From assembly GCA_947258975.1 (NCBI GenBank), contig CAMYKK010000003.1:212503-276502 (forward strand): a stretch of DNA of 64,000 nucleotides. The letters are read 5' to 3'. The notes beneath the pieces were generated by a model. That model did not search any database. It was not told where the DNA came from and saw only the letters and a program-made list of their open reading frames with translations. A program made the translations under genes and the position numbers. This document shows positions 48,765 through 63,833 of the stretch, piece after piece (within the stretch, counting starts at the first letter, position 1; the number at the start of each line of letters is the position of its first letter). This DNA comes from an uncultured Gammaproteobacteria bacterium. GTDB lineage: Bacteria; Pseudomonadota; Gammaproteobacteria; Arenicellales; JAANXG01.

Positions 48765-51308
48765 TCAGTCTTTGGTTTCACGTTTGTCGTCACCGGCTGG
48801 GGCTCCGCCCTGGTTGGCGCCATGGATGCGGGTAATCTTGGTGGTCTCGCCGGAAGATGACGTAAGCCGGCCGGAATCGTGAACGCCCGCTTCGCTTGTC
48901 AAGTCGCGAATGTGAATGTCGCGCTGCGGAAACGGAATCTCGATGCCGGCCTCGTCAAACGCTTTCTTAATGGCGAACCGTAAGTCACTGGCGGTGCGCA
49001 GGCGGCGGTCGATATCGCGAATGTAGAATCGCAGCTCGAAGTCCAGGGAGCTGTTGCCAAATTCCGTAAATATGACTTGCGGAGCCGGCCGGCTAAGGAC
49101 TTCGGAATTTTCATTGACACAGTTTAGCAACACATCACGAACGCGCTCGGGTTCGGAACCATAGGATACTCCAACTGGAATGATTACGCGCCCCACCTTG
49201 CTCTTGTGCATCCAATTAACGACTTCCGATGTTACAAGATTGCTGTTGGGCACGATTAGAGACGCATTGTCGAAGGTTTGTATCTCGGTGGAGATCACGT
49301 TGATCCGCTTGACATACCCCTCGTTGCTTCCAAGCACAATCCAGTCGCCGGCCTTGATGGGGCGCTGAATTAGTAAGATGAGCCCTGAGACGAAGTTATT
49401 GACCGTGTGCTGCAGGCCGAAACCGATACCGACGGACAGGGCGCCGAAAATGATTGCCAACTGACTGAGGTTGAGGCCGAGCACCGAGAATGTGATCAGT
49501 ACGGCAAAGACGATTCCCACATATCCGACGCCGGAAGTCAGGGCATCACGCACTCCGATGTCGAGACTGGTCTGCACCAGAATGCGACTGGACAGTAAGC
49601 GCTGGAGCAAGCGGATACCGATAGCCAGGGTAACGAAGACGGAAATTGCTATAGCAATGTTGAGTAAGGAAAACTCAAAACTACCGATCTCGATACCATC
49701 GGCGAGAGCCAAGAATATTGGCTTCACTTCCGTCCACGGTATGCCCCATAGCAATAGGATCACCATGGACATTGCCAGAAACAACAGCACGTCGGCCAGC
49801 AAGACGATCCAGAACACCAGCCGTGCGCCTCCGGCATCGCCGACGCCCAGACGTTGGCGCACCCACGCGCCCACGGCATTCGCTTTGGAGGTTGCCAATC
49901 TCGTGCCCGTAGCAACCAGGCCGTGCATCAACCAGGCAACGCCAAGCAGCGCCAGAGTCCAGACGATCCGTTTGGATACGAACAGGCCAAAATTGAGATA
50001 GCCGAGGGCGCCCGCGATAATGCTGACGATGAGCCCCACGCGGGCCAGATTTAACAGCAATCGATAGCCCGCCGGTGGTGGGCGGGTAGAGGGCGGGTCA
50101 GCGTCGGCCTCTACGAATCGCCAGTTGATTGGACGCAGCACGTTGAGCAACAGCGTGCCGAGAACGAGTAACGCGGTCATGCCCACAACACCCGATAATT
50201 CGGCGGGCGCTTGTGTTTCCGTCAACCAGGTAGCGAGCAGTGGTTCGACCATGGCCACACCGCTCATCGCCATAAGCAAATGAATGAAGAAAGCAGTGCC
50301 GGCAAATAACCATAGGGCGTAGTCGAGCTTTACCGCGGCTTGGTCGGTGAACGTCGTCAAACGCCAATTTGGGGCACGCGGCGCGAGTGTGACCGCGGAT
50401 AAACCAGTGATCATCACAAATTGCAGAGCGGCTACGGTGACCCTGTTTACGAACAACCGCGATTCTTGTGCAAGGTTCGAAAAATATAGCGTTACAAATG
50501 TGAGCAATAAGACCGCGACCACAGGGAGCACTACGCGGGCGGCGCATTCAACCAGGGCAGCGGCCAACTGGTCGTGTAGTGCGGGGCCCTGGAAATTCGC
50601 GTCGCGACCGTATCGTCGTAACAGCCAATAGCGGGTGACCCGCCAAGCCGAGATGATGGCAAGGCTGGCCACCAGCAGTAGCATGACACGTGTGCCCCGT
50701 TCCTCGACTAAATCCTCCTGTGACCACCATTCGGCGCCCGCGCGCCCCAACTTCTGAAGACGCTCTGGAAGTTGTTGTGCTGCGTCGACAAGAATTCCCG
50801 GCGAAAACGGCGAACGCGAACGCTGGCTGAGAACACGGGACAGGGTGCCGATCTCGACATCGGCGATTTGCCCAAGCAGGCCGGTGGCGCGCGCGAAAAC
50901 AACATTGCTTTGTTTTACCTGGCCGTCGTAACGGACAATGCGCTGCGTGATTGCGCTGCGTTTCGCGGCGATGGCGGCGGTTTCCGGCGGTTCGCCTTCT
51001 TCCGGAGGGAGTCCCAGGGCATCGAGCAGCTTGCTGTGTCTGGCAACTTCCTTCTCCGCCCGTTCTCGGGCCTTCTGTGCAGACTCCTGCACCACCGTGA
51101 TGTTTTCGAGCAACGGCCTGATTTCCCGCTTGCCGATGCGCGGAAGTTTTAGCGCACGCTCGGTGAACTCCAAGGTGCTGTTCCACCTTACGAGCAAGTC
51201 TTCGAACGGAGTCTCCGGAACATCCCCTTGTGCGGCCCAGACCGAGAGCGACAACGGCATCAAGGCGCCAAGGAGGCATGACAACACTATTTTCGCTAGT
51301 GGCTGCAT
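48765..51308 (-). CDS. Large MscS-family mechanosensitive channel with DUF3772-like periplasmic region
   Basis: A protein of about 847 residues, related to MscK/MscM-type large MscS channels. A signal peptide is followed by a long periplasmic coiled region (about 30-195), then about eleven membrane helices. The MscS core is marked by the pore helix ALSVGIGFGLQHTVNNFVSGLI and the beta domain IKAGDWIVLGSNEGYVKRI. The channel releases solutes on osmotic downshock. I start at ATG 51308; a TTG at 51320 is in frame but less likely. It is divergent from the cNMP-binding protein. Confidence 0.92.
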   Translation of the reverse strand: MQPLAKIVLSCLLGALMPLSLSVWAAQGDVPETPFEDLLVRWNSTLEFTERALKLPRIGKREIRPLLENITVVQESAQKARERAEKEVARHSKLLDALGLPPEEGEPPETAAIAAKRSAITQRIVRYDGQVKQSNVVFARATGLLGQIADVEIGTLSRVLSQRSRSPFSPGILVDAAQQLPERLQKLGRAGAEWWSQEDLVEERGTRVMLLLVASLAIISAWRVTRYWLLRRYGRDANFQGPALHDQLAAALVECAARVVLPVVAVLLLTFVTLYFSNLAQESRLFVNRVTVAALQFVMITGLSAVTLAPRAPNWRLTTFTDQAAVKLDYALWLFAGTAFFIHLLMAMSGVAMVEPLLATWLTETQAPAELSGVVGMTALLVLGTLLLNVLRPINWRFVEADADPPSTRPPPAGYRLLLNLARVGLIVSIIAGALGYLNFGLFVSKRIVWTLALLGVAWLMHGLVATGTRLATSKANAVGAWVRQRLGVGDAGGARLVFWIVLLADVLLFLAMSMVILLLWGIPWTEVKPIFLALADGIEIGSFEFSLLNIAIAISVFVTLAIGIRLLQRLLSSRILVQTSLDIGVRDALTSGVGYVGIVFAVLITFSVLGLNLSQLAIIFGALSVGIGFGLQHTVNNFVSGLILLIQRPIKAGDWIVLGSNEGYVKRINVISTEIQTFDNASLIVPNSNLVTSEVVNWMHKSKVGRVIIPVGVSYGSEPERVRDVLLNCVNENSEVLSRPAPQVIFTEFGNSSLDFELRFYIRDIDRRLRTASDLRFAIKKAFDEAGIEIPFPQRDIHIRDLTSEAGVHDSGRLTSSSGETTKITRIHGANQGGAPAGDDKRETKD

Positions 51309-51457
51309 TTCGACTGGCAATCGGCTGGATCTGGGGTGTCAGCGACGATATGAATATTGTAACCTGTGAACAGGGTGTGAGTTGGGGAAAAGGTTGATCT
51401 GGACGGTATGCCATGTCAACCTTTACCTATGGTTGTTTGTCATCGGAGAGAGGCCTC

Positions 51458-51922
51458 GTGACGCTGACCGCCGAAGCCAGGGTGCTCGGAAACATTCCGT
51501 TGTTCGCGAAGTTACCGCCGGCCAAGCTGAAGCTGCTGGCATTTACCAGTGAGGCCGTCACGTTTATTGACGGCGAGGAGTTATTTCATGCGGGGGATCA
51601 GTCAGACTGCGCGTATGTCGTGATCGATGGAGAAGTGGAGGTGTTCACCCACTCCGACGCAGACAAAGCCAGTTTTTTGCTCGGGAAAAACGAACTGATT
51701 GGCGAAATGGGCATCCTCAACAACGCGCCGCGATCGGCGACAATCCGTGCAAAGGGCAAAGTGCGCGTACTTCGCTTGACTAGCGACACCTTGTTGAAGC
51801 TGCTTTCTGAGAACGCAGAGATTGCACTGGATGTCATGCGGCTGTTGAGTGACCGGTTGGCCAACACATTACACAAATACGAAGAATCACAAGCCAAATT
51901 GAAACAATTCGAAGACCGGTAG
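51458..51922 (+). CDS. Stand-alone cyclic-nucleotide-binding domain protein
   Basis: A protein of about 154 residues consisting of one CRP-type cNMP-binding domain without the DNA-binding helix-turn-helix. The phosphate-binding cassette IGEMGILNNAPRSATIRA has the conserved Glu and Arg for cAMP or cGMP. A C-terminal coiled helix (DRLANTLHKYEESQAKLKQFEDR) could mediate dimerisation. I prefer GTG 51458 behind GGAGAGAGG over ATG 51413. Only an HD-domain gene separates it from a class III cyclase, suggesting that it reads that enzyme's product. Confidence 0.85.
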   Translation: MTLTAEARVLGNIPLFAKLPPAKLKLLAFTSEAVTFIDGEELFHAGDQSDCAYVVIDGEVEVFTHSDADKASFLLGKNELIGEMGILNNAPRSATIRAKGKVRVLRLTSDTLLKLLSENAEIALDVMRLLSDRLANTLHKYEESQAKLKQFEDR

Positions 51923-52027: not shown

Positions 52028-52657
52028 ATGCAGCAGCGCTTCAATGCCTTATGGGAACGGTGTGTGCCGGCCCCCTTGGCGCGGCCCGCCGAGTATGTGT
52101 ATCGCGAGCTGGAGGAACAATACTCCCATCCCAATCGCCATTATCACGACCTCCGGCATATCGGAGCGTGTTTAAAGCACTTCGACGCTGTCAGCGGTCG
52201 GCTCACGGAGCCGGATGCAGTGGAAATGGCGCTGTGGTTTCACGATGCGATTTATGAACCCGGGGCCGATGATAACGAGCGGCGCAGCGCCAAGCTGTTC
52301 CTCGGATGCGCAGTGGGCGACGCCGACGGCGGGTTTCTGGAAGTGGTGCATAATCTGGTGTTGATGACGGAGCATCCCAGTGAGCCGCAGAGTGTGGACG
52401 AACAATTCACCGTGGATATCGATCTGGCGAGCTTCGGATTGCCATGGGAGGCGTTCATTCGGCTCGGCAAGTTAGTGCGAAATGAATTCCCGCATTTATC
52501 GGACCGCGAATTTAAAAGCGAGCAACTCCAATTCTTCGAGAAACTCGCCAACCAACCCCAATTCTATTTCACGGATTTCTTTCGTTCCCGCTATGAGGAC
52601 GCGGCACAGGCTAACCTGCGGCGGAGAATCGCCCAACTGCGGCACGGCACCGCGTAA
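52028..52657 (+). CDS. HD-domain metal-dependent phosphohydrolase-like protein (COG4339 type)
   Basis: A 209-residue protein with an HD-type metal site (RHYHDLRHIG with His, and ALWFHDAIYEPG with His-Asp). It resembles the predicted metal-dependent HD phosphohydrolases of COG4339, whose substrates are unknown. No regulatory domain is attached. It lies between the cNMP-binding protein and the convergent nucleotidyl cyclase, so a role in cyclic nucleotide turnover is conceivable but not shown. Its stop lies only 15 bases from the cyclase stop. Confidence 0.82.
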   Translation: MQQRFNALWERCVPAPLARPAEYVYRELEEQYSHPNRHYHDLRHIGACLKHFDAVSGRLTEPDAVEMALWFHDAIYEPGADDNERRSAKLFLGCAVGDADGGFLEVVHNLVLMTEHPSEPQSVDEQFTVDIDLASFGLPWEAFIRLGKLVRNEFPHLSDREFKSEQLQFFEKLANQPQFYFTDFFRSRYEDAAQANLRRRIAQLRHGTA

Positions 52658-52672
52658 CCGCGATATTGCATA

Positions 52673-53890
52673 TTAGGTATCGCCGGAAATCTCGGCGTCA
52701 ACGTTATAGATCGTGGTATCGGCTTTTCTGCCGCGTACTTTGACTGCGCCGATTCGCTGGAACGAAAAATCATCAGGACCGGCAAGCCGGTATGTACTTT
52801 CTGACACTAAAATCTGGGTGCCATACTGTTTGTTGAGTTGTTCCAATCTCGCCGCCAGGTTCACATCGTCTCCCAACACGGTATAGCTCAATCGATCGCT
52901 GGTGCCGACCAGTCCACCTACTACGACCCCTGTATTCACACCGATTCTGGAGCGGAAGCGCAATCCGTCGCCGAAGGTTCGGCTGGCTAATATTTTCTGA
53001 ATAGCTATCGCGGCGCGCACCGCATTGGCGGCATGGTCGTCGTCGGCTTTTGGCAGGTTGAAACTAGCCAGAATCGCATCTCCTTGAAACTGATTAATGA
53101 CGCCTCCGAAGTGCTCGATGGGTTCCGCAACGGCGATGCAGAATTCATTCAGAGTAGTTATCAACTCCGTTGGCGACATGCTCTCGCACAGAGCTGTAAA
53201 TTTTTCAACATCGGCAAACAATACGGTTGTCTGCCGGACCTCGCCCTCCCCGGCAATCATTTCATGATCTGATGATTTCAACTGTTGGGCGACTTCAGTA
53301 GGGACGAAACGTGATAGATCGCGGGCGGCGGTGCTGTCAACTACAGATTGCACCAGTAAACCGCGAGCGCGATGCAAGGCGATGGCCAGGATCGTGGTAA
53401 CCATTAAGATCGAAATTACTTTACCGGCAGTAGCCACAAATCTGGCCTCAAACCGCAGCGCGCGCAGAGCAATGAATATGAACACATACAATAAGGTGGG
53501 CGCCTTGAGATAAAATGAGGGCGGCTGATCGTATTGAATGTGGAAAGTCCATATCAAGCCGAAGAGCAGCGTAATGTCCGCGACTACTGAAACATAGAGC
53601 AGCCAGTCCGGCAACTTTCTGTTGTGCGCCAGTATCAGCCTGATCAGAGTAAACAGAAGATAAGCGCTCAGCGCCCATGGAACCGGCGCAAATTCCGCGT
53701 CTTCACCGAAGGTTTTGGGGGCCAAGGTGTACAATACGGAGAACACGATGACCACGCCGAGTTGAATCCAGCCGATCAGCACTTCGCTGGAGTCCTGCTG
53801 AATGCGAATGGCTTCACGTAAGCGGGGTGGCATCTTATGGCGGTACGCGCGAAGCGTGGCGGGAAGAAATGCGTATATTTTCGCTAACAT
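52673..53890 (-). CDS. Membrane-bound class III adenylate/guanylate cyclase
   Basis: A 405-residue cyclase. The N-terminal half holds about six membrane helices (roughly 35-175) in place of a sensor domain; a linker leads to a class III cyclase domain (about 215-400). Metal-binding Asp residues are in VLFADVEKFTALCE and QGDAILASF, and the transition-state Asn-Arg pair in DDVNLAARLE. The purine-specifying Lys of classical adenylyl cyclases is Gln here (INQFQGD), while the partner Asp is kept, so cAMP is likely but not certain. It is divergent from the glycosyltransferase locus. Confidence 0.9.
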   Translation of the reverse strand: MLAKIYAFLPATLRAYRHKMPPRLREAIRIQQDSSEVLIGWIQLGVVIVFSVLYTLAPKTFGEDAEFAPVPWALSAYLLFTLIRLILAHNRKLPDWLLYVSVVADITLLFGLIWTFHIQYDQPPSFYLKAPTLLYVFIFIALRALRFEARFVATAGKVISILMVTTILAIALHRARGLLVQSVVDSTAARDLSRFVPTEVAQQLKSSDHEMIAGEGEVRQTTVLFADVEKFTALCESMSPTELITTLNEFCIAVAEPIEHFGGVINQFQGDAILASFNLPKADDDHAANAVRAAIAIQKILASRTFGDGLRFRSRIGVNTGVVVGGLVGTSDRLSYTVLGDDVNLAARLEQLNKQYGTQILVSESTYRLAGPDDFSFQRIGAVKVRGRKADTTIYNVDAEISGDT

Positions 53891-54039: not shown

Positions 54040-55272
54040 ATGAGTGAGCGCCTGAACGGGGGCCGAGTACTCATATACAGCCATGATACCTTCGGTCTGG
54101 GCCATCTTCGCCGGTGCCGGACCATTGCCCATTCCTTGGTCGAAAGATATAAGGGACTCTCCGTGTTGATCCTGTCGGGTTCGCCCATAATCGGGAGCTT
54201 CGATTACCGGGCACGCGTGGATTTTGTGCGCATACCGGGAGTTATCAAGCTCCACAACGGCAAATACACCTCCCTGGGGTTGCACATCGATCTGGAGCAG
54301 ACTTTGGCCATGCGTTCCTCGATCATCCACCACACGGCGAAGATCTTCGATCCAGACCTGTTTTTGGTGGACAAAGAACCATTGGGGCTTGGGGGAGAGG
54401 TCTTGCCCACATTGCAACATTTACGGCAACGGGGCACGGTTACCGTATTAGGGCTGCGGGACGTCATGGATGAGCCGACAATGCTGCGCCGTGAATGGCA
54501 GCGTAAACGGGCGCTCCCGGCGCTGCGAGACCTCTATGATGAGATATGGGTTTACGGGCTCGAACAATTGGGTGAGCCGCTTGCGGGCTTGAGTATTCCG
54601 GGCTTGGTGCAAGAAAAGATGATATACACCGGCTACCTGCGACGGGATCCGCCGAAAGAACGGATGTTAACGTCGGTGGAAATGAAAGAACCGTATCTGT
54701 TAGTTACCGCCGGTGGCGGCGGCGACGGCGAGGAGATGATCGATTGGGTATTGCGTGCGTATGAGTACGATTCCAGTTTGCCGTTCTCTGCGCTTTTTGT
54801 TTTGGGGCCGTTCATGACGCCGGCGCGGCAGCGTGCGTTTCAACGCCGCGCCGATCGCCTGCCGCACGTGCAAACCTTGGAGTTTGACAACCATATTGAA
54901 CTGCTCATCGCCAAAGCGGTCGGGGTAGTTGCTATGGGCGGGTACAATACGTTTTGCGAGATATTGAGTTTCAACAAAAGGGCGTTGCTGGTACCGCGAA
55001 CACGGCCACGCAAGGAACAACAGATTCGCGCGCGTCGGGCCCAGCAACTCGGCGTAGCCAAGATGCTCGTCGGCATCGGAGACCGGGACTGGAGAGTCAT
55101 GGCGCGCGCGCTTCACGAATTACCGAATCAATCCCTTCCCTCGGAAGTCGTGATTCCCGGAATTCTCGATGGTTTGATGACCATCGGGGACCGCGTGGAG
55201 TCGTGGGTGGTGACTCGGCACAAAGCACCGGTTGATTTTCGGCCGGACGCGCTGTTCCACATACCGCAGTAG
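54040..55272 (+). CDS. COG4671-like (MurG/GT28-fold) glycosyltransferase
   Basis: A 410-residue cytosolic glycosyltransferase with a GT-B fold. The N-terminal YSHDTFGLGHLRRCRTIA resembles the GxGH loop of MurG-type enzymes. The C-terminal half has LLVTAGGGGDGEEMI and VGVVAMGGYNTFCEILSFNKRALLVPR, which match the nucleotide-sugar site (Gly-rich loop and Glu). It is followed seven bases later by a second enzyme of the same type. Donor and acceptor are unknown. It opens the plus-strand half of the glycan locus. Confidence 0.87.
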   Translation: MSERLNGGRVLIYSHDTFGLGHLRRCRTIAHSLVERYKGLSVLILSGSPIIGSFDYRARVDFVRIPGVIKLHNGKYTSLGLHIDLEQTLAMRSSIIHHTAKIFDPDLFLVDKEPLGLGGEVLPTLQHLRQRGTVTVLGLRDVMDEPTMLRREWQRKRALPALRDLYDEIWVYGLEQLGEPLAGLSIPGLVQEKMIYTGYLRRDPPKERMLTSVEMKEPYLLVTAGGGGDGEEMIDWVLRAYEYDSSLPFSALFVLGPFMTPARQRAFQRRADRLPHVQTLEFDNHIELLIAKAVGVVAMGGYNTFCEILSFNKRALLVPRTRPRKEQQIRARRAQQLGVAKMLVGIGDRDWRVMARALHELPNQSLPSEVVIPGILDGLMTIGDRVESWVVTRHKAPVDFRPDALFHIPQ

Positions 55273-55279
55273 GTTTTCC

Positions 55280-56455
55280 TTGCCCGTTCCTTCGACCCCT
55301 GCGTCGCCATCCGGTGGGGGAGCCCTTATTTATGTCCAGCACCTGTTGGGGACCGGGCACTTAAGGCGCGGGGCGTTGCTTGCCCGTGCGCTTGCCGCAG
55401 CGGGTATGCGTGTCGAACTCGTGTCCGGAGGCATGCCGGTGCCACATCTGCCTTACCCCGTATATCAGTTGCCGCCGGTACGCTGTGCGGCGGATGATTT
55501 CACGGCGTTGATCGATGAGACTGGGGAGCCGGTGACCGGTACATGGCGATCGCATCGGCGAGAATGTTTGCTGGATCGTCTCTTTACATTCCGGCCCGAC
55601 GTGCTCATCCTGGAGACCTTCCCTTTCGGGCGCAGGCAAATGCGGTTCGAACTTATGCCATTGCTAGCGGCCGCCCGCAGCGTACGCCGCCGCCCGCTCA
55701 TCGCCTCCTCGGTGCGTGACGTACTTCAAAAACGGAGGCCGCAACGCATGATGGAGACCGTGTCCTTGCTCACGGACTACTTCGATAAAGTGTTAGTGCA
55801 TGGTGACCCGGCGTTCATAGGTCTTGAAGAATCGTTTCCCATGGCCAGTGAAGTTCAAGACAAGATAACGTATACCGGTTATATCGCGGAATACGATGAG
55901 AGCGAGCAGTCAGCGGATACGAACGGCGCCGAGGAAGTGCTGATATCTGCCGGCGGTGGTGCAGTTGGCAGGCGCCTGATGTTGGCTGCAGTGGCAGCGC
56001 GTTCCTTATCCAAACTCCGCATGCGGCGCTGGCGGTTTTTAATTGGTCCTGGATTGCCCGAAGCGGAATTGCGAGCGATCAAGGCCCGTGCGGACGGCGA
56101 CATCGTTTTCGAAGCGGTGCGTGATGATTTCCAGGTATTATTGAGACGTTGCGCGGTCTCGGTGTCCCAGGGCGGATACAATACCGTAGTGGACGTATTG
56201 CGGTCGGGTGCGCGATCGGTGATTGTGCCGTTTACCGGGGGTGGTCAAACCGAACAAGCGTTCCGCGCGCGTCGATTGCATCAATGCGGCTACGTGCTGA
56301 CTCTCGATGAAGCCGAGCTGACGCCGCAGGTGCTGGCTGAAACCATTGATCGCGCGTCAAACATGACGCCGTCGACCAACACCATCAACCTGGAAGGCGC
56401 AGCAAACAGCGCCAAATATCTTCTTGCCGCGCGCGCATGTGGCCTGGGATGTTGA
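55280..56455 (+). CDS. Second COG4671-like (GT28-fold) glycosyltransferase
   Basis: A protein of about 391 residues paralogous to the gene before it. Matching motifs are VQHLLGTGHLRRGALLARALA near the start, VLISAGGGAVGRRL in the middle, and SVSQGGYNTVVDVLRSGARSVIVPF near the end. I start at TTG 55280, seven bases after the previous stop with AGTAGG upstream; an ATG at 55232 would overlap the previous gene by 41 bases. Two tandem paralogues suggest successive sugar additions or a heterodimer. The deacetylase follows seven bases later. Confidence 0.85.
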   Translation: MPVPSTPASPSGGGALIYVQHLLGTGHLRRGALLARALAAAGMRVELVSGGMPVPHLPYPVYQLPPVRCAADDFTALIDETGEPVTGTWRSHRRECLLDRLFTFRPDVLILETFPFGRRQMRFELMPLLAAARSVRRRPLIASSVRDVLQKRRPQRMMETVSLLTDYFDKVLVHGDPAFIGLEESFPMASEVQDKITYTGYIAEYDESEQSADTNGAEEVLISAGGGAVGRRLMLAAVAARSLSKLRMRRWRFLIGPGLPEAELRAIKARADGDIVFEAVRDDFQVLLRRCAVSVSQGGYNTVVDVLRSGARSVIVPFTGGGQTEQAFRARRLHQCGYVLTLDEAELTPQVLAETIDRASNMTPSTNTINLEGAANSAKYLLAARACGLGC

Positions 56456-56462
56456 TCGTGTC

Positions 56463-57227
56463 ATGACGGGTTGGATAGATCTTGAGCGGGAACTAGACGC
56501 CTGGCGGGCTATGGGCAGGACCGCGACCTTCTGGTGGCGAGACGACGATTCGGAGAACGACGATCCCGCCATAGACCATTTGCTGGCGATGCAACGCGGG
56601 TTAGGAGTGTCCATTGCGATCTCCGCAGTGCCGGCCGTCACCGACGCTAATTTTGCAGAACGGGTTTTTGCCGGGTCGGACATATGCGTATTGCAGCACG
56701 GCTATGCCCATCGGAACCAAGCACCGGCGGGCGATAAAAAATGCGAATTCCCAGGAAATCGGACCGTGCGGGCGGTGTGCCGAGAACTGGAGGCCGGGGC
56801 GCGGCTGCTGCGAGATTTGTTCGGAGCGCTCAGCTTGCCGGTATTGGTGCCACCATGGAATCGCATCCACAAAGACTGGTACTGTCAGTTGCCGGGACTC
56901 GGATACCGCGGTCTGTCAATGTTCGCGCCGCGTTCAGCGGCATATGAGGTTCCGGCGCTGCGCATAGTCAATACCCATGTCGATATCCTCGATTGGCGGG
57001 GCGGCCGGGCGTATGTCGGCCTGACGAACGCCCTCGAGCAGGCGATGTCACATCTTCAGCGGCGACGCCATCGCGATGTAGATGCCGACGAACCCACCGG
57101 CTTGTTGACCCACCACCTCGTACACGATGCGCGCTGTTGGGCTTTCATTGAGGAGTTCGTGGGACGAACCAAGTCCCACCCGGCAACGCGCTGGTTGCGC
57201 GCCGCAGACCTTTTCGCGTGCGCGTGA
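56463..57227 (+). CDS. NodB-like polysaccharide deacetylase
   Basis: A 254-residue carbohydrate-esterase-4-like protein without a signal peptide, so it acts in the cytosol. The metal and base Asp pair lies in FWWRDDDSENDD, the metal-binding His pair in QHGYAHRN, and LVPPWNRI replaces the usual RPP motif. Such enzymes remove acetyl groups from N-acetylated sugars. It follows the two glycosyltransferases by seven bases. Deacetylation here and a formyltransferase in the facing operon suggest an N-modified amino sugar. Confidence 0.8.
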   Translation: MTGWIDLERELDAWRAMGRTATFWWRDDDSENDDPAIDHLLAMQRGLGVSIAISAVPAVTDANFAERVFAGSDICVLQHGYAHRNQAPAGDKKCEFPGNRTVRAVCRELEAGARLLRDLFGALSLPVLVPPWNRIHKDWYCQLPGLGYRGLSMFAPRSAAYEVPALRIVNTHVDILDWRGGRAYVGLTNALEQAMSHLQRRRHRDVDADEPTGLLTHHLVHDARCWAFIEEFVGRTKSHPATRWLRAADLFACA

Positions 57228-57261: not shown

Positions 57262-57933
57262 CTACTTGTAGCCGATCAACATAAAGCGGGTGTATTTCTT
57301 GAGCTCCAAAGAGCCTGCAAGCAGGGATTCACGCATCGGGGCCTGGTGTTGAAAGGTAGCAAGGTCGGGGACACAATTGGTATGTTCTTCGCAGGCATAG
57401 TAGTTGTTGGACTGTAAAACTTGTAACGTGCCTGCCGGGATCTTCGCGTACCAATCCGCAAATCGGTCAAGGTGCTCGCAGGACGTATTGATGAGCACAT
57501 CGGGCACGGTCTTGGAAACGCCGCTTGTCAGCAGGTCCTCGTACACCAGCTGGTGTACATCGGCGGTGATCGCACGGAACTTGCCGCGTGCAAGATGCGC
57601 GCGGTTGAGGCTCTCAGCAATGGGTTTGCAGTGTTCATCCCGGTCGATGCATACAACTTCCTTAATATCGAAACGTTTGTCGTGCAGCAAAATCGCAGCC
57701 AATACACCGTACCAACCACCCAAGATGTATATGTTACCTAGGTGACCGTCGGCTGTTTTATACAGCTCATTTGTCAACCATAGCTTTCCGGAAATCTGAT
57801 TCTTATTCAACGCCGCACCGAGATCGGGCGCGTTGCAATGGCCTACGGTGGTCAATATATCGGCGATGAATGGACTGGCGTAGTAGCACGCCAGGCCGTC
57901 CAAAATATCACTATAGAATTCGTCCCTATTCAA
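57262..57933 (-). CDS. SAM-dependent methyltransferase-like protein with a LGGWYG motif
   Basis: A 223-residue Rossmann-type protein. The first glycine loop reads IYILGGWYGVLAA, an unusual version of the SAM-binding motif; VVCIDRDEHCKPIAESLNR is the acidic second motif. INTSCEHLDRFADWYAKIP and LQSNNYYACEEHTNC follow. Similar LGGWYG proteins occur in bacterial gene clusters and in cyanophages, without known substrates. It ends the minus-strand operon and overlaps the preceding GT4 gene as ATGA. Methyl transfer is inferred from the fold only. Confidence 0.75.
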   Translation of the reverse strand: MNRDEFYSDILDGLACYYASPFIADILTTVGHCNAPDLGAALNKNQISGKLWLTNELYKTADGHLGNIYILGGWYGVLAAILLHDKRFDIKEVVCIDRDEHCKPIAESLNRAHLARGKFRAITADVHQLVYEDLLTSGVSKTVPDVLINTSCEHLDRFADWYAKIPAGTLQVLQSNNYYACEEHTNCVPDLATFQHQAPMRESLLAGSLELKKYTRFMLIGYK

Positions 57934-59108
57934 GACAGGTGCTCCCTGGAATCGGCGCGTGAGTGCGTTGCAGACCGCCGTGCGACCGCTTGTTCAATGA
58001 GCGCCTGCAACGCGGCTCGCGCCGTAGCGATGTCGTGCAAGTTCTCTGCTTTGCGCCGGGCTTGCCGTCCCATCTGCGCGCGGCGGTCGGGATGATTCAA
58101 TAGGGAACGAAGCGCGTTGCCGAACGCACCGGCGTCGTGTGCGACCAACAGGCCGGTTTGTCCATGTTCGACGATGTCCCCCACGCCACCTGTACGACCG
58201 GCAATGGCCGGCACACCACAAGCATGCGCCTCCAGCAACGCCATACCATAGGCTTCTCCAACCGCCGGCCACACGAGTAGATCGCTGGCTGTCAGCCAGC
58301 GTGCGATATGATCGCCCGCGAGTTCACCCAGAAAGTGGACCCGCCCTTCAGGAAATGCGGCAAACGACGCGAAGACCTGGGTGCGTGCCGGTCCATCGCC
58401 AATGACAACGAGTGTCCATGGGTGGTCGGTGACGGTCTCCAGGGCCTTGGCCAACAACCGGAATGAGTCGAGTTTGCTGATTTCTCGCATCATGGCGACA
58501 GTGATCAACCATGGTTGATCACCGGGAATATCATGCTGCTTTGCCAACCTCGTGCGCAGCTCAGCAGCGATTGCTTCGCTTGGCGGTTCCGGCAGATCCA
58601 TAAAAGGCCGCATGAGTATAACGTCGTTGGTACGAAGTCTTCGTATACCCGGTACATCGTTTGAATTCAATGCGATCACCGCGTCTGCCTTAAGAATTGC
58701 ATCAGTGGCCGCTGCATACCCCAGTGACCACCGGCCGGCCTCTTGTTTGCCGGCATGAGACGCCTCGATGACTAAATATGGTATATCCAAGTCTGTGGTC
58801 ACCGCCGGACCGATCCAGTCGGGCGCCTTGTGATATAGATGGTAGGTCACCCACGCTGCAGGGCGCTGCTGGGGTGGAAGTTGTCGTAAATGCCTCATTA
58901 ACTTGTTCGCATGGTGTTTCCCGATGCGGCGTAATCTCTGCTGGCGCCGCGCATCTCCCGATGCATCCCAGCTGCGAAATCGGGATGCCAGAACCACATC
59001 CTGTTGTTTCGTGTCCAGGGCGCGGCATAACAATCGAGCTACGCGCCGGTCGCCGGAGGGCTCTGGGTCATCGGGGGCCTTCATGGGCGCATAAAACGCG
59101 ATTTTCAT
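57930..59108 (-). CDS. Family 4 glycosyltransferase
   Basis: A 392-residue retaining GT-B glycosyltransferase. The donor-binding region is typical for GT4: VVIGDGPARTQVF, then GEAYGMALLEAHACGVPAIA with the E-x7-E pair, and GGVGDIVEHGQTGLLV. The N-terminal acceptor domain is Arg-rich and has a divergent start (KIAFYAPMKAPDDPEPSGDRRVARLL), typical of two-domain polysaccharide assembly enzymes. Both ends overlap neighbours by four bases. The acceptor is unknown. Confidence 0.9.
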   Translation of the reverse strand: MKIAFYAPMKAPDDPEPSGDRRVARLLCRALDTKQQDVVLASRFRSWDASGDARRQQRLRRIGKHHANKLMRHLRQLPPQQRPAAWVTYHLYHKAPDWIGPAVTTDLDIPYLVIEASHAGKQEAGRWSLGYAAATDAILKADAVIALNSNDVPGIRRLRTNDVILMRPFMDLPEPPSEAIAAELRTRLAKQHDIPGDQPWLITVAMMREISKLDSFRLLAKALETVTDHPWTLVVIGDGPARTQVFASFAAFPEGRVHFLGELAGDHIARWLTASDLLVWPAVGEAYGMALLEAHACGVPAIAGRTGGVGDIVEHGQTGLLVAHDAGAFGNALRSLLNHPDRRAQMGRQARRKAENLHDIATARAALQALIEQAVARRSATHSRADSREHLS

Positions 59109-60364
59109 GCGGCGTTGTCGGTTGTCACCCCGAATTGGGCGGCAATGCCGTTGATATGGACATCAAGCGAGAAGTGTTCCCGTACCTTGGTGTTTCCCGC
59201 CTCTCCCAGCCGCATGCGGAGGTTAGGATCGCCGATCAGGCGGTCCAACGCTCGGGCCAAGGCCTCGATGTCGCGCTCCGGCACCATCAGGCCGGTCTCT
59301 TCATGATCAATCAACTCGGGAATACCGGAGACCGTCGTCGACACCACCGCGAGCCGTTGACTTGACGCCTCCAATAACACATTAGGTAGCCCGTCGCGGT
59401 CGCCGTCGGCGCTGACCCGGCAGGCGAGCGCGAATATGTCCGCCCGCCGGTACCATGCCAAAACCTCTTGTTGCGGAAATGCCCCGAGCCATCTTATGCG
59501 TGACGCGAGCCCCAACTCATGCCCAAGACGCTTGAGTGCTGGTAAACGTTCACCATCGCCGATATGAACGAATTGCCACTGACGGGTGCCCGGTAATTTT
59601 TGCAGCGCCCGCAACAAGTCATCGTAGCCTTTCTTATCCACCGCCCGTCCGACCGACAGAATAATTACCGGGTCGTGGGTATCGCGCCCTTCCCGTGGGG
59701 GACGGGGGAGATCGGGTGGTGGAAACCGACCCAGATCCAAGCCGTGGTAATTCAATCTAATGTTGTCGTGGTTTTCCGCGATGTCATGAAGGTGGGAGAC
59801 GTTGGCCTGGGTGCACGTGGTTATCCAGGCGCACCCGGCGAGCTTTTGCCGTTTCTCCCACAGCGGCGTGGTCCAGATGTCCTTCGCGTGCGCTGAACAG
59901 CTCCAGGGTATTCCCATCAGGGCGCTCGCATAGCGTGCTACCGACGCTGGAGTATGTAAGAAGTGCGCATGTAGATGCCGCACTTTGTCCTTCAGTTCGC
60001 AGCCCAACACCATCGCCTGGCCAAAGCGCCGGATGCGACTAGCGGACCTATCGCGGCGCAGGTCCCGGCGCCACATATCACGGGTGGCCGCATAGTTGGG
60101 TGAGCGCCGCGCGTTAGCCCAAGCGCGGACAACGCGCTGCGGTTCTTGGTACAGATATTCAGGTAGATACAATACTGTCGCTTTAATCTCGTCGTGTATA
60201 GGATGGATTGCCGGATCGGTGGGGTGCCGGAGTGACACGATCACAATCTCCATCCCTCTTTGTTCCAGCGCGACGATTTCTTGCGCGATGAACGATTCCG
60301 ACAACCGCGGGTAGCCTTTCACGACAAACGCGACCGTATTAGAGATTGGGTCTATGGCAGTCAT
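59105..60364 (-). CDS. Family 4 glycosyltransferase
   Basis: A 419-residue GT4 enzyme, distinct from its neighbour. The opening VAFVVKGYPRLSESFIAQEI is typical for the WcaL/AmsK-type group of exopolysaccharide transferases, LHAHFLHTPASVARYAS follows, and the donor site is SVGRAVDKKGYDDLL plus DRDGLPNVLLEASSQ and SGIPELIDHEETGLMV. I start at ATG 60364, which overlaps the formyltransferase stop as ATGA. It should add a sugar to a lipid-linked or small-molecule acceptor at the cytosolic face. Confidence 0.9.
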   Translation of the reverse strand: MTAIDPISNTVAFVVKGYPRLSESFIAQEIVALEQRGMEIVIVSLRHPTDPAIHPIHDEIKATVLYLPEYLYQEPQRVVRAWANARRSPNYAATRDMWRRDLRRDRSASRIRRFGQAMVLGCELKDKVRHLHAHFLHTPASVARYASALMGIPWSCSAHAKDIWTTPLWEKRQKLAGCAWITTCTQANVSHLHDIAENHDNIRLNYHGLDLGRFPPPDLPRPPREGRDTHDPVIILSVGRAVDKKGYDDLLRALQKLPGTRQWQFVHIGDGERLPALKRLGHELGLASRIRWLGAFPQQEVLAWYRRADIFALACRVSADGDRDGLPNVLLEASSQRLAVVSTTVSGIPELIDHEETGLMVPERDIEALARALDRLIGDPNLRMRLGEAGNTKVREHFSLDVHINGIAAQFGVTTDNAA

Positions 60365-61071
60365 AGTTGTGAGGTAAATCTTTCGAACCGCTTCACACAC
60401 AGCTCTTTCAATACGCTGGGCATAAAAGAGTAGTAACGCCCGACAGTTCTAAGCGGACGGGTTTCGAGGCCGCCCGGTGATTGAAAGTTGTTCACTGCCT
60501 GGCGTGACAACTCAACGGCCGCCTGGGTGCTGGCCGCCCGCAGCTGAAAGAGCCGCATTCCAGGTTCGATCGCTACCTTTTTCATGGCCAGGATATCACC
60601 ACGGTCAAGGTCTGTTGACATGGATTGCACCGCCACCGAGAGGGCCGCGAAATCACGATGATAAATTGTCCACAAATGGGCATCGAGACCTCGATATTGC
60701 TCCGGGTCTCCGGTGTGAACGTTAAACACGCCGGCTGGACACGCATCGATAACCGCGGTGCTAAGCTTCCGAGTGCCAAAAACGATCATGATGTCCGGTT
60801 GGATTGCAGTCATGGCGCGCACCGCATCCGTTTGATTTAACGAAGGAAAATACTCCGTGGCGGCGATGTCCGTGAACGTTGGCGGATGGCCTTTGAACCA
60901 CGCGTTTTTCTCATACTCTTTGCTCTTTGCCTCGAACGGATGAGTGGTCTCGAACGGTGGCGTCAACTCGCCGGTTTCGACGAACACCCGAGTCACGGGC
61001 ACAGCGTCGTGCAGGGCTTGGGCGAAGTAGCGCCGACGCACAGATCCAGTCGTCAAAATAATCAGCCGCAT
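60361..61071 (-). CDS. Formyltransferase-family protein
   Basis: A protein of about 236 residues with the methionyl-tRNA-formyltransferase fold. The catalytic Asn-His lies in FNVHTGDPEQYRG and the Asp in TDLDRGDILA, so the triad Asn, His, Asp is complete. Bacterial relatives transfer a formyl group from 10-formyl-tetrahydrofolate to amino sugars such as dTDP-Qui4N. I start at ATG 61071; a TTG at 61104 is possible. It heads the minus-strand operon and is divergent from the ABC-like protein. A dedicated amino sugar is inferred from the context. Confidence 0.82.
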   Translation of the reverse strand: MRLIILTTGSVRRRYFAQALHDAVPVTRVFVETGELTPPFETTHPFEAKSKEYEKNAWFKGHPPTFTDIAATEYFPSLNQTDAVRAMTAIQPDIMIVFGTRKLSTAVIDACPAGVFNVHTGDPEQYRGLDAHLWTIYHRDFAALSVAVQSMSTDLDRGDILAMKKVAIEPGMRLFQLRAASTQAAVELSRQAVNNFQSPGGLETRPLRTVGRYYSFMPSVLKELCVKRFERFTSQL

Positions 61072-61190
61072 TGTTTTGCAGACATTCTTTATTGAGTCAA
61101 GCAAGTAGCCCTTGTAAGCTATCCCAGTGGAGAACTTTTCTCCATTACGAAAACGATAAAAGCCTCGTTTAATCCTTCCGGTGAGTACTG

Positions 61191-63833
61191 ATGGAACCGT
61201 CTATCTATCGCTATGTCCTAAAACACACACTCAAGGATCAGATATTGCTGATTCTGATGACTGCCGCTTCCCTGCCACTTGTATACATCACTCTGGAAGT
61301 TCCCAAGCGCATTATCAACGAGGCAATCGGTGGCCAGGGCGCGCCCTACTCGATGCTGGGTTTTGACCTTGATCAAATCGGATATCTTCTGGTCCTGTGT
61401 TTTATCTACCTGGGTTTGGTGATAATAAACGGAGGATTCAAGTACGTTAATAATGTCTATCGCGGGGTCGTGGGAGAGCGGATGTTGCGCCGGTTTCGCT
61501 ACGAACTTTACACCCGCATACTACGTTTTCCACTGCCGCATTTCAAACACACTTCCCAAGGTGAGCTTATCCCGATGATTGTCGCCGAGACCGAGCCCTT
61601 GGGTGGTTTCATTGGCGAGGCATTTGCGCTTCCCGCGTTTCAGGGCGGGATCTTGTTAACGTACCTGTCGTTTATTTTTGTTCAGGACGTATTTCTTGGG
61701 ATTGCCTCGATCATGATGTATCCGCTGCAGATGTACGTGATTCCAAAGCTGCAGCGCAAGGTAAATGCACTCAACAAGCAAAGGGTCCAAAAGGTCCGCA
61801 CGTTCTCTGACCGCATTGGTGAAACCGTCTCCGGCATTACCGAAATTCATGCCCACAACACTTCTCGATTTGCCCGTGCAATCGTGGGGGGTGTATTGGG
61901 CGGTGTTTTTCACATCCGCTACGACGTTTACCGGCGTAAATTCTTCATTAAGTTTCTGAATAACTTCCTCGATAAACTTACACCGTTTTTCTTTTATTCG
62001 GTGGGAGGGTATCTCGTCATCAGTGGTGAGCTTTCCCTCGGCGCACTGGTTGCTGCGTTGGCGGCGTACAAGGATATTTCGGATCCCTGGAAGACGTTGC
62101 TCAAGTATTACCAAACCAAAGAAGACGTGCGTGTAAAATACTCGCAGATCATCGAGCAATTTCAGCCTGGCAATATGCTGACTCAGGAATTGCTGGATGA
62201 AGAGCCCGAGGACATCCCGCCGTTGACGGGCAATATGGTTTCCACCAACTTGAGTTACTCCGAGGATGGAACCGTTAGACTAATCGACGGCGTAAGCTTC
62301 GGGCTGGATATCAATACCCATGTGATTACCGTGGGCCTAGACAACAGCGGCAAGGACGAACTTTCGATGTTGATTGCGCGGTTGATTCAGCCCACCGGCG
62401 GGCGACTCGCGATCGATAATCGAAACCTGGCCGAGTTGCCGGAGGCGGTGCTCGGGAGGCGAATGGCATACGTTGGACAGGGTGCTTATATATTCGCCGG
62501 TACGGTGCGCGATAACCTGTACTATGGCTTGAAACACCGTCCTATCGCTGATCCCGATTACGACGAAGCAGCAAAAAAGTCTCGGGAGCATGAACTCAAG
62601 GCGGCGATTGCCGCAAATAACAGTAGCGATGATGTGCGTGCCGACTGGATCGATTATGAGACGGCGGGTGTCGCGAATACGGCGGAGCTGGAACAAAAGG
62701 CGCTTATGCTCACCGAGCTTGTGGACATGGAGAAGGATCTATATCAACTGGGCTTGCGGGGCAAGATAGAACCGAACACCTACCCCGAGCTGATCGAACG
62801 GATACTTACGGCACGAGACCAACTTCGTCGCCGTTTACAGGAACCGGATCTGGCGGATTTGGTGCAATCCTTTGACCGTAGCCTGTACAACACCAATATG
62901 TCCGTTGCCGAGAATCTGCTGTTCGGTTCGGCCTTAGACCCGGCTTTTGAACTCGAGAATTTGGCGACCAATTCCGAGGTTCGGCGAGTACTGGATGCAG
63001 CCAGCCTCACAGAGACCCTGGTCGACATCGGTAAGCAGGTGGCGGAAACCATGATTGAATTATTTGCCGATGTTGATCCGGATAGCGAATTATTTGAAAA
63101 ATATAGTTTTATCAGCGCCGATGATTTGCCCGGGTTTGCCAGACTGCTCGCGCTTACGGAGGAACGTAGTGCTGCAGGCCTGGGGGAGGAAGATCGGGTA
63201 CGCCTGCTCTCTTTGACTCTCAAGCTCGTACCGTCGCAACATCGCCTGGGTCTGATAGATGAGCGATTGCAGTCCCGCCTCATGGAAGCGCGTCAGGCTC
63301 TGGCGAAGCGACTGGCGGTGCTGAAAACCGCTGTGGCGGGATTCGATTCGGAGCGATTCAATACGTCGCTCTCGCTCCAGGACAATATTCTGTTCGGCAG
63401 ACCGAATCCGGGGCCGGCGCGGGCGCAAACGCGCATCGGAGAGTTGATTGCTGATACCGTCGATGAACTGGACCTACATCAAATGATCACTAAGGTCGGC
63501 CTCGATTACGAAGTCGGGATTGGTGGTTCCCGGCTGAGCCTCGCGTTGCGCCAGAAACTGGCGATCGCGCGCTGTCTGCTGAAAAATCCGGATGTGTTCG
63601 TAGTCAACCAAGCCACCAGTGCATTGGATCCCGGAACAGAACTTCAGCTCGTGAAGAAATTGATCGCGTACCGGAAGGACAAATCCCTGATTTGGGTATC
63701 TGATCGAGCGGAGTTGGCCAGATATTTTGACCAAGTGATGGTGTTGGAAAGAGGAAGACTCAGCGAACAGGGGACCTTCGACGAACTCTCGAGCCGGGGT
63801 ACGTTGTTCCCTCGCTTGGCAGGGGCCAGTTAG
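61191..63833 (+). CDS. ABC-exporter-like protein with degenerate, internally repeated nucleotide-binding domain
   Basis: An 880-residue protein. Residues 1 to about 320 form a type IV ABC exporter membrane domain with about six helices. The ATPase domain (about 345-875) is abnormal. Walker A is GLDNSGKD (382-389) with Asp389 where Ser/Thr belongs. The signature is GSRLSLALRQ (779-788) rather than LSGGQ. Walker B and the catalytic Glu read VVNQ, with Asn806 and Gln807 in place of Asp-Glu. The H-loop His is Asp838. The Q-loop follow-on segment occurs three times: YIFAGTVRDNLYYG (433-446), a copy at 563-579, and one at 721-736, separated by helical stretches of about 115-140 residues. ATP hydrolysis looks impossible in the usual way. 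It faces the formyltransferase divergently and closes the glycan locus. Confidence 0.9.
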   Translation: MEPSIYRYVLKHTLKDQILLILMTAASLPLVYITLEVPKRIINEAIGGQGAPYSMLGFDLDQIGYLLVLCFIYLGLVIINGGFKYVNNVYRGVVGERMLRRFRYELYTRILRFPLPHFKHTSQGELIPMIVAETEPLGGFIGEAFALPAFQGGILLTYLSFIFVQDVFLGIASIMMYPLQMYVIPKLQRKVNALNKQRVQKVRTFSDRIGETVSGITEIHAHNTSRFARAIVGGVLGGVFHIRYDVYRRKFFIKFLNNFLDKLTPFFFYSVGGYLVISGELSLGALVAALAAYKDISDPWKTLLKYYQTKEDVRVKYSQIIEQFQPGNMLTQELLDEEPEDIPPLTGNMVSTNLSYSEDGTVRLIDGVSFGLDINTHVITVGLDNSGKDELSMLIARLIQPTGGRLAIDNRNLAELPEAVLGRRMAYVGQGAYIFAGTVRDNLYYGLKHRPIADPDYDEAAKKSREHELKAAIAANNSSDDVRADWIDYETAGVANTAELEQKALMLTELVDMEKDLYQLGLRGKIEPNTYPELIERILTARDQLRRRLQEPDLADLVQSFDRSLYNTNMSVAENLLFGSALDPAFELENLATNSEVRRVLDAASLTETLVDIGKQVAETMIELFADVDPDSELFEKYSFISADDLPGFARLLALTEERSAAGLGEEDRVRLLSLTLKLVPSQHRLGLIDERLQSRLMEARQALAKRLAVLKTAVAGFDSERFNTSLSLQDNILFGRPNPGPARAQTRIGELIADTVDELDLHQMITKVGLDYEVGIGGSRLSLALRQKLAIARCLLKNPDVFVVNQATSALDPGTELQLVKKLIAYRKDKSLIWVSDRAELARYFDQVMVLERGRLSEQGTFDELSSRGTLFPRLAGAS

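Follow-up and report, generated by a model that had tools for sequence, protein, structure and literature searches.

The closest described relatives of the protein under study are the type IV (ABCB/MsbA-like) exporters. Their domain order, membrane domain and NBD core are shared by a protein of the window (the whole stretch of 64,000 nucleotides that was analysed), which is labelled pABC here for pseudo-ABC exporter. The pABC family differs from these exporters in lacking an intact LSGGQ signature, in the change of the Walker B Asp to Asn and in the loss of the H-loop His, and it adds a large insertion, two extra copies of one segment and an inverted order of conservation. ABC-exporter folds without catalytic residues are also met in heterodimeric exporters, where degenerate ATP sites are already known, and in CFTR, an ABC-exporter fold turned into a gated channel that is controlled by cAMP. 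In both of these, one ATP site or more still works, whereas pABC has none that can be recognised and no canonical partner in its locus. Cyclic-nucleotide-gated channels are comparable in their way of working, as a cNMP-binding domain, either C-terminal or on a partner, acts there on a membrane protein; the membrane domain of pABC, however, is ABC_membrane and belongs to no ion-channel family.

The locus as a whole resembles the phazolicin-protecting polysaccharide (PPP) cluster of Sinorhizobium meliloti, which, judging from map position, would share the glycosyltransferases, the Opp-like importer, pABC and the cNMP gene with it. According to Travin et al. (PMC10128002), an uncharacterised surface polysaccharide depends on nine genes of smb21252-smb21271, insertions in the PPP genes lower fitness in phazolicin and there are reports of regulation by cAMP of genes that may take part; the same paper states that the Agrobacterium tumefaciens orthologues were found by a pyocyanin screen (Perry and Newman 2019, as cited in PMC10128002). 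Seven of the nine PPP genes were up-regulated during predation (PMC10315480). The dead ABC protein and its cNMP partner are not described in the available part of PMC10128002.

The pABC protein, its ATPase motifs and the triplicated segment

The pABC gene (61191-63833, + strand) was found in the ORF list as an intact frame of 880 aa with an ATG start. Pfam recognised ABC_membrane (residues 66-290, 1.5e-18); its ABC_tran match (1.6e-10) fell into two stretches, the best at 366-468, which is what a split NBD would give. Both domains scored above the Pfam cut-offs, in the order ABC_membrane then ABC_tran that marks a type IV ABC exporter. The best PDB matches, by sequence and by fold, were P-glycoprotein, TmrAB, Sav1866 and similar exporters. 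The AF2 monomer model (pLDDT 85.2, pTM 0.79) revealed one ABC core with three consecutive helical modules. By descent pABC is an ABCB-type exporter, carrying none of the catalytic features by which a working member is recognised.

The motifs were compared in an alignment of 95 relatives from Gamma- and Alphaproteobacteria. The altered Walker A, GLDNSGKD (residues 382-389; 62334..62357, +), has Asp389 at the Ser/Thr position, and the strict pattern GxxxxGK[ST], without a match in the window's protein, is present in 9 of the 95 relatives. The signature has degenerated to LSLAL (residues 782-786; 63534..63548, +), and LSGGQ is missing from every aligned relative (0/95) as well. Walker B (residues 802-807; 63594..63611, +) ends in Asn806-Gln807; the DE pair was kept in 6/95 relatives, and the Asp is changed to Asn in 82/92 members. 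In the H-loop region the window's protein has Asp838 (63702..63704, +), a place where His occurs in six of the 95. The changes listed in the original prediction, namely Asp389, LSLAL, Asn806-Gln807 and Asp838, were therefore all borne out. Counting the four catalytic motifs together, 78 relatives retain zero, 13 retain one, four retain two and none retains more, and no close homologue with normal motifs was found among the 95. An acid swap between Walker A position 389 and Walker B position 806 was also considered and was dropped, as the residue table gave no clean covariation.

The prediction had further described a triplicated ATPase domain. A segment is indeed present in three copies, but the domain itself is not triplicated, only its post-Q-loop/helical-subdomain segment being repeated. 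Profile comparison and the AF2 model located copy 1 at residues about 424-447 (GTVRDNLYYGL; 62460..62531, +), copy 2 at about 558-580 (NMSVAENLLFGS; 62862..62930, +) and copy 3 at about 714-738 (LSLQDNILFGR; 63330..63404, +), the last being followed by the degenerate signature. The two extra copies are held in the insertion of 270 residues. Comparison of the copy profiles (73 sequences) with hhalign gave E = 3.7e-6 for copies 1 and 2, 3.2e-7 for 1 and 3 and 1.6e-12 for 2 and 3. At the sequence level these values confirm that the three copies are homologous to one another, and the triplication is not due to chance. In the AF2 model each copy consists of a strand, a short helix, helices and a long helix, and all are inserted in one otherwise recognisable NBD. 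Three copies are present in 95/95 relatives, 83 of them by a strict pattern and 12 off by about one residue in copy 1.

The conserved locus and the cyclic-nucleotide link

The homologue set from Gammaproteobacteria and Rhodospirillales comprised 136 relatives, from which 80 loci were kept; with the window, 81 loci were compared. The genes recurring in the 80 loci encode two GT28-like and two GT4 glycosyltransferases, the cNMP protein, a 209 aa protein, a cyclase, a 267 aa protein and an Opp-like importer, and this gene set is common to loci from Arenicellales to Rhizobium. A glycosyltransferase context was found in 67/81 loci, and always where the flanking sequence suffices. The Rhodospirillales loci form a single co-directional array with pABC-cNMP in its middle.

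In the window the two GT28 genes lie on the + strand as conserved locus members, GT28a at 54040..55272 (PF04101 1.2e-5) and GT28b at 55232..56455 (PF04101 5.4e-9; ORF start uncertain). The 209 aa protein (52028..52657, +) adjoins the cNMP gene in many loci and has HD-phosphohydrolase-like motifs by eye only, and the conserved 267 aa protein (56424..57227, +) is present in 26/81 loci; neither had a Pfam or NCBIfam match. On the - strand follow a 223 aa protein (57262..57933), whose homologue adjoins pABC in S. meliloti too, GT4 glycosyltransferase b (57930..59108; PF13692 2.5e-26) and the EpsE-like GT4 glycosyltransferase a (59105..60400; PF00534 2e-33; NF041876 2.4e-46, under its cut-off). A formyltransferase-like protein (60361..61104, -; PF00551 1.5e-9), divergent from pABC, is confined to near relatives (5/81 loci). 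In many loci the GT4 pair is followed downstream by a histidine phosphatase of about 195 aa (L046:13786-14364 and equivalents), which the window's copy of the locus lacks. The Opp-like importer is complete, with two permeases, SBP_bac_5 and a double ATPase, and is situated just past the window end in this genome (L041:5221-11210, G000:C3); from Gammaproteobacteria to Rhizobium it is a conserved neighbour of pABC, and its ATPase could be a source of power.

The stand-alone cNMP-binding protein of the window (51413..51922, +; 169 aa; PF00027 3.1e-19) has an intact phosphate-binding cassette. In Rhodospirillales, pABC homologues with a length of about 1180 aa have a C-terminal cNMP-binding domain of their own (PF00027, 3.3e-20), together with a GGDEF-type domain (9e-9); on inspection, the GGDEF motif of the latter proved degenerate. 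The window's cNMP protein matched these fused domains with E values of 1e-17 to 1e-30, against about 1e-5 to 1e-12 for the other compared cNMP proteins of the same genome, and on these scores it is a member of the cNMP family that is fused to pABC in Rhodospirillales. Where there is no fusion, a gene of the same family is found separately near pABC. At the level of the order, the family occurs in 28/28 genomes with pABC and in 3/32 without it (Fisher p 4e-14 without a correction for phylogeny, the pattern holding family by family). The cassette G-E...R...A is intact in all of the 58 cNMP companions. pABC and its companion show two of the features expected of a cNMP-regulated membrane protein, a fused or linked cNMP-binding domain and an intact phosphate-binding cassette. 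The link of pABC to the cNMP protein is well supported by the gene fusion, the synteny and the co-occurrence, which strongly favour the earlier suggestion of a part played by the nearby cNMP system. The related idea of a nucleotide sensor fits the dead NBD less well, the cNMP-binding partner being the likely sensor instead.

A model of the fused protein (pLDDT 76, pTM 0.59) gave support for two folds that follow the NBD, a cNMP beta-roll and a GGDEF-like one, but not for their docking. The GGDEF-like end of the fused proteins in L086, L094, L097, L124 and other Rhodospirillales loci is a second dead enzyme domain in each chain. Divergent members with C-terminal cNMP-like domains were observed in the window's own order (L029/L054 of G023 and L037 of G053), and so the fusion is not confined to Alphaproteobacteria.

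A class III adenylate/guanylate cyclase is encoded beside these genes (52673..53890, -; PF00211 4.5e-28), with N-terminal membrane segments recognised by eye; inspection also showed its metal Asp residues and the Asn/Arg pair. A cyclase lies within +/-10 kb in only about one quarter of the compared loci. In Rhizobium johnstonii it is located at the head of the locus, where pABC (RL_RS29995) is directly followed by the cNMP gene (RL_RS29990). An MscS-type mechanosensitive channel with DUF3772 (window 48765-51320, -) is divergent from the cNMP gene.

Homologues of the locus genes were identified at 822-845 kb of S. meliloti pSymB, a stretch with the glycosyltransferases, the Opp-like importer, pABC (about 842-844.4 kb) and the cNMP gene (844.5-845.0 kb); the homologue of GT4 glycosyltransferase b occupies the map place of SMb21252. 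On the unannotated pSymB record, the recognisable ORF order, with ORF types assigned by eye, fits the published tags, which describe SMb21247 as a deacetylase, SMb21249 as a sulfotransferase and SMb21250 as a glycosyltransferase and also include SMb21248. This fit probably places the locus inside smb21252-smb21271, the PPP cluster; for pABC and the cNMP gene of S. meliloti, the exact SMb tags are inferred from the gene order. SMb21257 is listed as a truncated adenylate cyclase (PMC12542648), and the cyclase of the PPP cluster accordingly appears truncated, unlike that of the window. S. meliloti MsbA2 (SMb21191) is also an exporter-type protein encoded in a glycosyltransferase operon on pSymB; it is a separate gene, and identity with pABC was ruled out by map position (near 938 kb against 842 kb).

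Conservation, proposed mechanism and alternative readings

The mean pairwise identity of pABC over 21 genomes was 72% in the membrane domain, falling to 46% in the NBD core and to 43% in the insertion. In MsbA of the same 21 genomes the usual order was seen, with 51% for the membrane domain and 57% for the NBD. The membrane domain was the better conserved of the two in 210/210 genome pairs for pABC and in 19/210 for MsbA. The region of highest conservation is the transmembrane domain (residues 1-325; 61191..62165, +), in which 98/325 positions are at least 90% conserved, polar residues along its length among them. Calling this domain normal, as had been done from the window alone, was thus an understatement, as it is unusually conserved. 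It follows from this inverted conservation that selection acts chiefly on a function of the membrane domain with its coupling region and not on ATP chemistry.

With motifs broken in all relatives found and a constant cNMP companion in a glycan locus, the input has apparently been switched from ATP hydrolysis to a second messenger. The best explanation, to which we give about an even chance, is a catalytically dead, homodimer-type exporter that is regulated by cyclic nucleotide and acts in surface-glycan assembly or translocation. It draws on the family-wide loss of the ATPase motifs, the triplication, the inverted conservation, the cNMP fusion, synteny and co-occurrence, the intact cassette and the glycan locus, all established from the sequences. 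We infer beyond this the contact of the separate cNMP protein with pABC, dimerisation, transport, gating, the substrate and the identity of the nucleotide. Weighing against this explanation are the Walker A Lys retained in 60 of about 90 members, the presence of a cyclase in only about one quarter of the compared loci and the importer with an ATPase of its own. Selection would keep pABC as a member of the conserved surface-glycan locus, and the cNMP-binding protein, fused or encoded nearby, would take over from the ATPase as the input. The cyclase, often in the same locus, may raise cNMP, whereupon the cNMP-binding partner would dock on the enlarged pseudo-NBDs and alter their arrangement. The conserved coupling region might relay this change to the membrane domain, which would open or close a path for, or present, a glycan or lipid-linked precursor, presumably the product of the glycosyltransferases of the locus. 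The narrower version, that the exporter fold traded ATP hydrolysis for cNMP and became a gated conduit or flippase for the surface glycan, its NBD serving as a triplicated helical docking platform, is proposed tentatively and we would sooner expect it to fail than to hold.

The main rival is that pABC is a membrane receptor or scaffold, in which the ABC fold anchors the cNMP sensor and the glycosyltransferases and toggles glycan synthesis. The lack of catalytic motifs, the enlarged helical modules as possible docking surfaces and the glycosyltransferase locus wherever the flank suffices would suit such a role, and the pseudo-GGDEF fused in the alphaproteobacterial proteins suggests a signalling protein. 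A pure scaffold would not need its membrane domain to be the most conserved part, polar residues included, and this reading is considered possible but rather unlikely. Two further readings are less likely. In one, the pseudo-NBD is an energy-state clamp that still binds ATP or a different nucleotide but does not hydrolyse it, and cNMP modulates only. Some members could still bind ATP in this manner, as the Walker A Gly/Lys skeleton is retained by most members and Lys388 in 60 of about 90, and the NBD core is well modelled. Against it, most members, the protein of the window included, lack both usual Mg ligands (the Walker A Ser/Thr and the Walker B Asp), and none of the 95 retains the signature by which ATP is clamped across the dimer, which makes a clamp improbable.

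In the other, pABC would pair, as the degenerate half, with a canonical exporter half encoded outside the locus, on the pattern of TmrAB or TM287/288. That a heterodimeric exporter can have a degenerate site is well established (review PMC7756269), and other exporters are encoded in the genome. This is nevertheless very unlikely, as the conserved neighbours of pABC in 80 loci included no recognisable canonical half and each composite site would miss signature or Walker B residues. To our knowledge, the known degenerate exporter halves are also far less altered than pABC. Simple decay of what was once an exporter gene, to which the change of every catalytic motif might point and which had been doubted from the intact frame, is ruled out for practical purposes by the strong conservation of the membrane domain, the conserved synteny and the open frames across many families, which are full-length in the genus, family and order of the window and recur in 34/397 sampled Pseudomonadota genomes (E <= 1e-120; one match has a stop).

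If the preferred reading of a cNMP-regulated dead exporter is true, it would represent a new mode of driving or gating an ABC fold, through a family without a visible working ATP site. The novelty would lie in an exporter family, spread across Proteobacteria, that is tied to a second-messenger sensor; no description of the pABC family was found in the literature searched, a collection of limited coverage. pABC offers a testable regulatory and mechanistic component of a surface-polysaccharide locus that is conserved and that has, in S. meliloti, a counterpart with a reported protective effect against a peptide antibiotic.

Homologues of pABC were also observed on plasmids of Rhizobium, Sinorhizobium, Ruegeria and Azospirillum. 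A paralogue of 846 aa occurs in the same genome as the window (G000:C10:73641-76151; L031:7633-10155, -), being 33% identical to pABC and more altered, with GADYRAGQ as its Walker A and a Walker B without the acid. Its neighbours are MarC, CNNM and Sel1-repeat genes, and it is found in near relatives as well.
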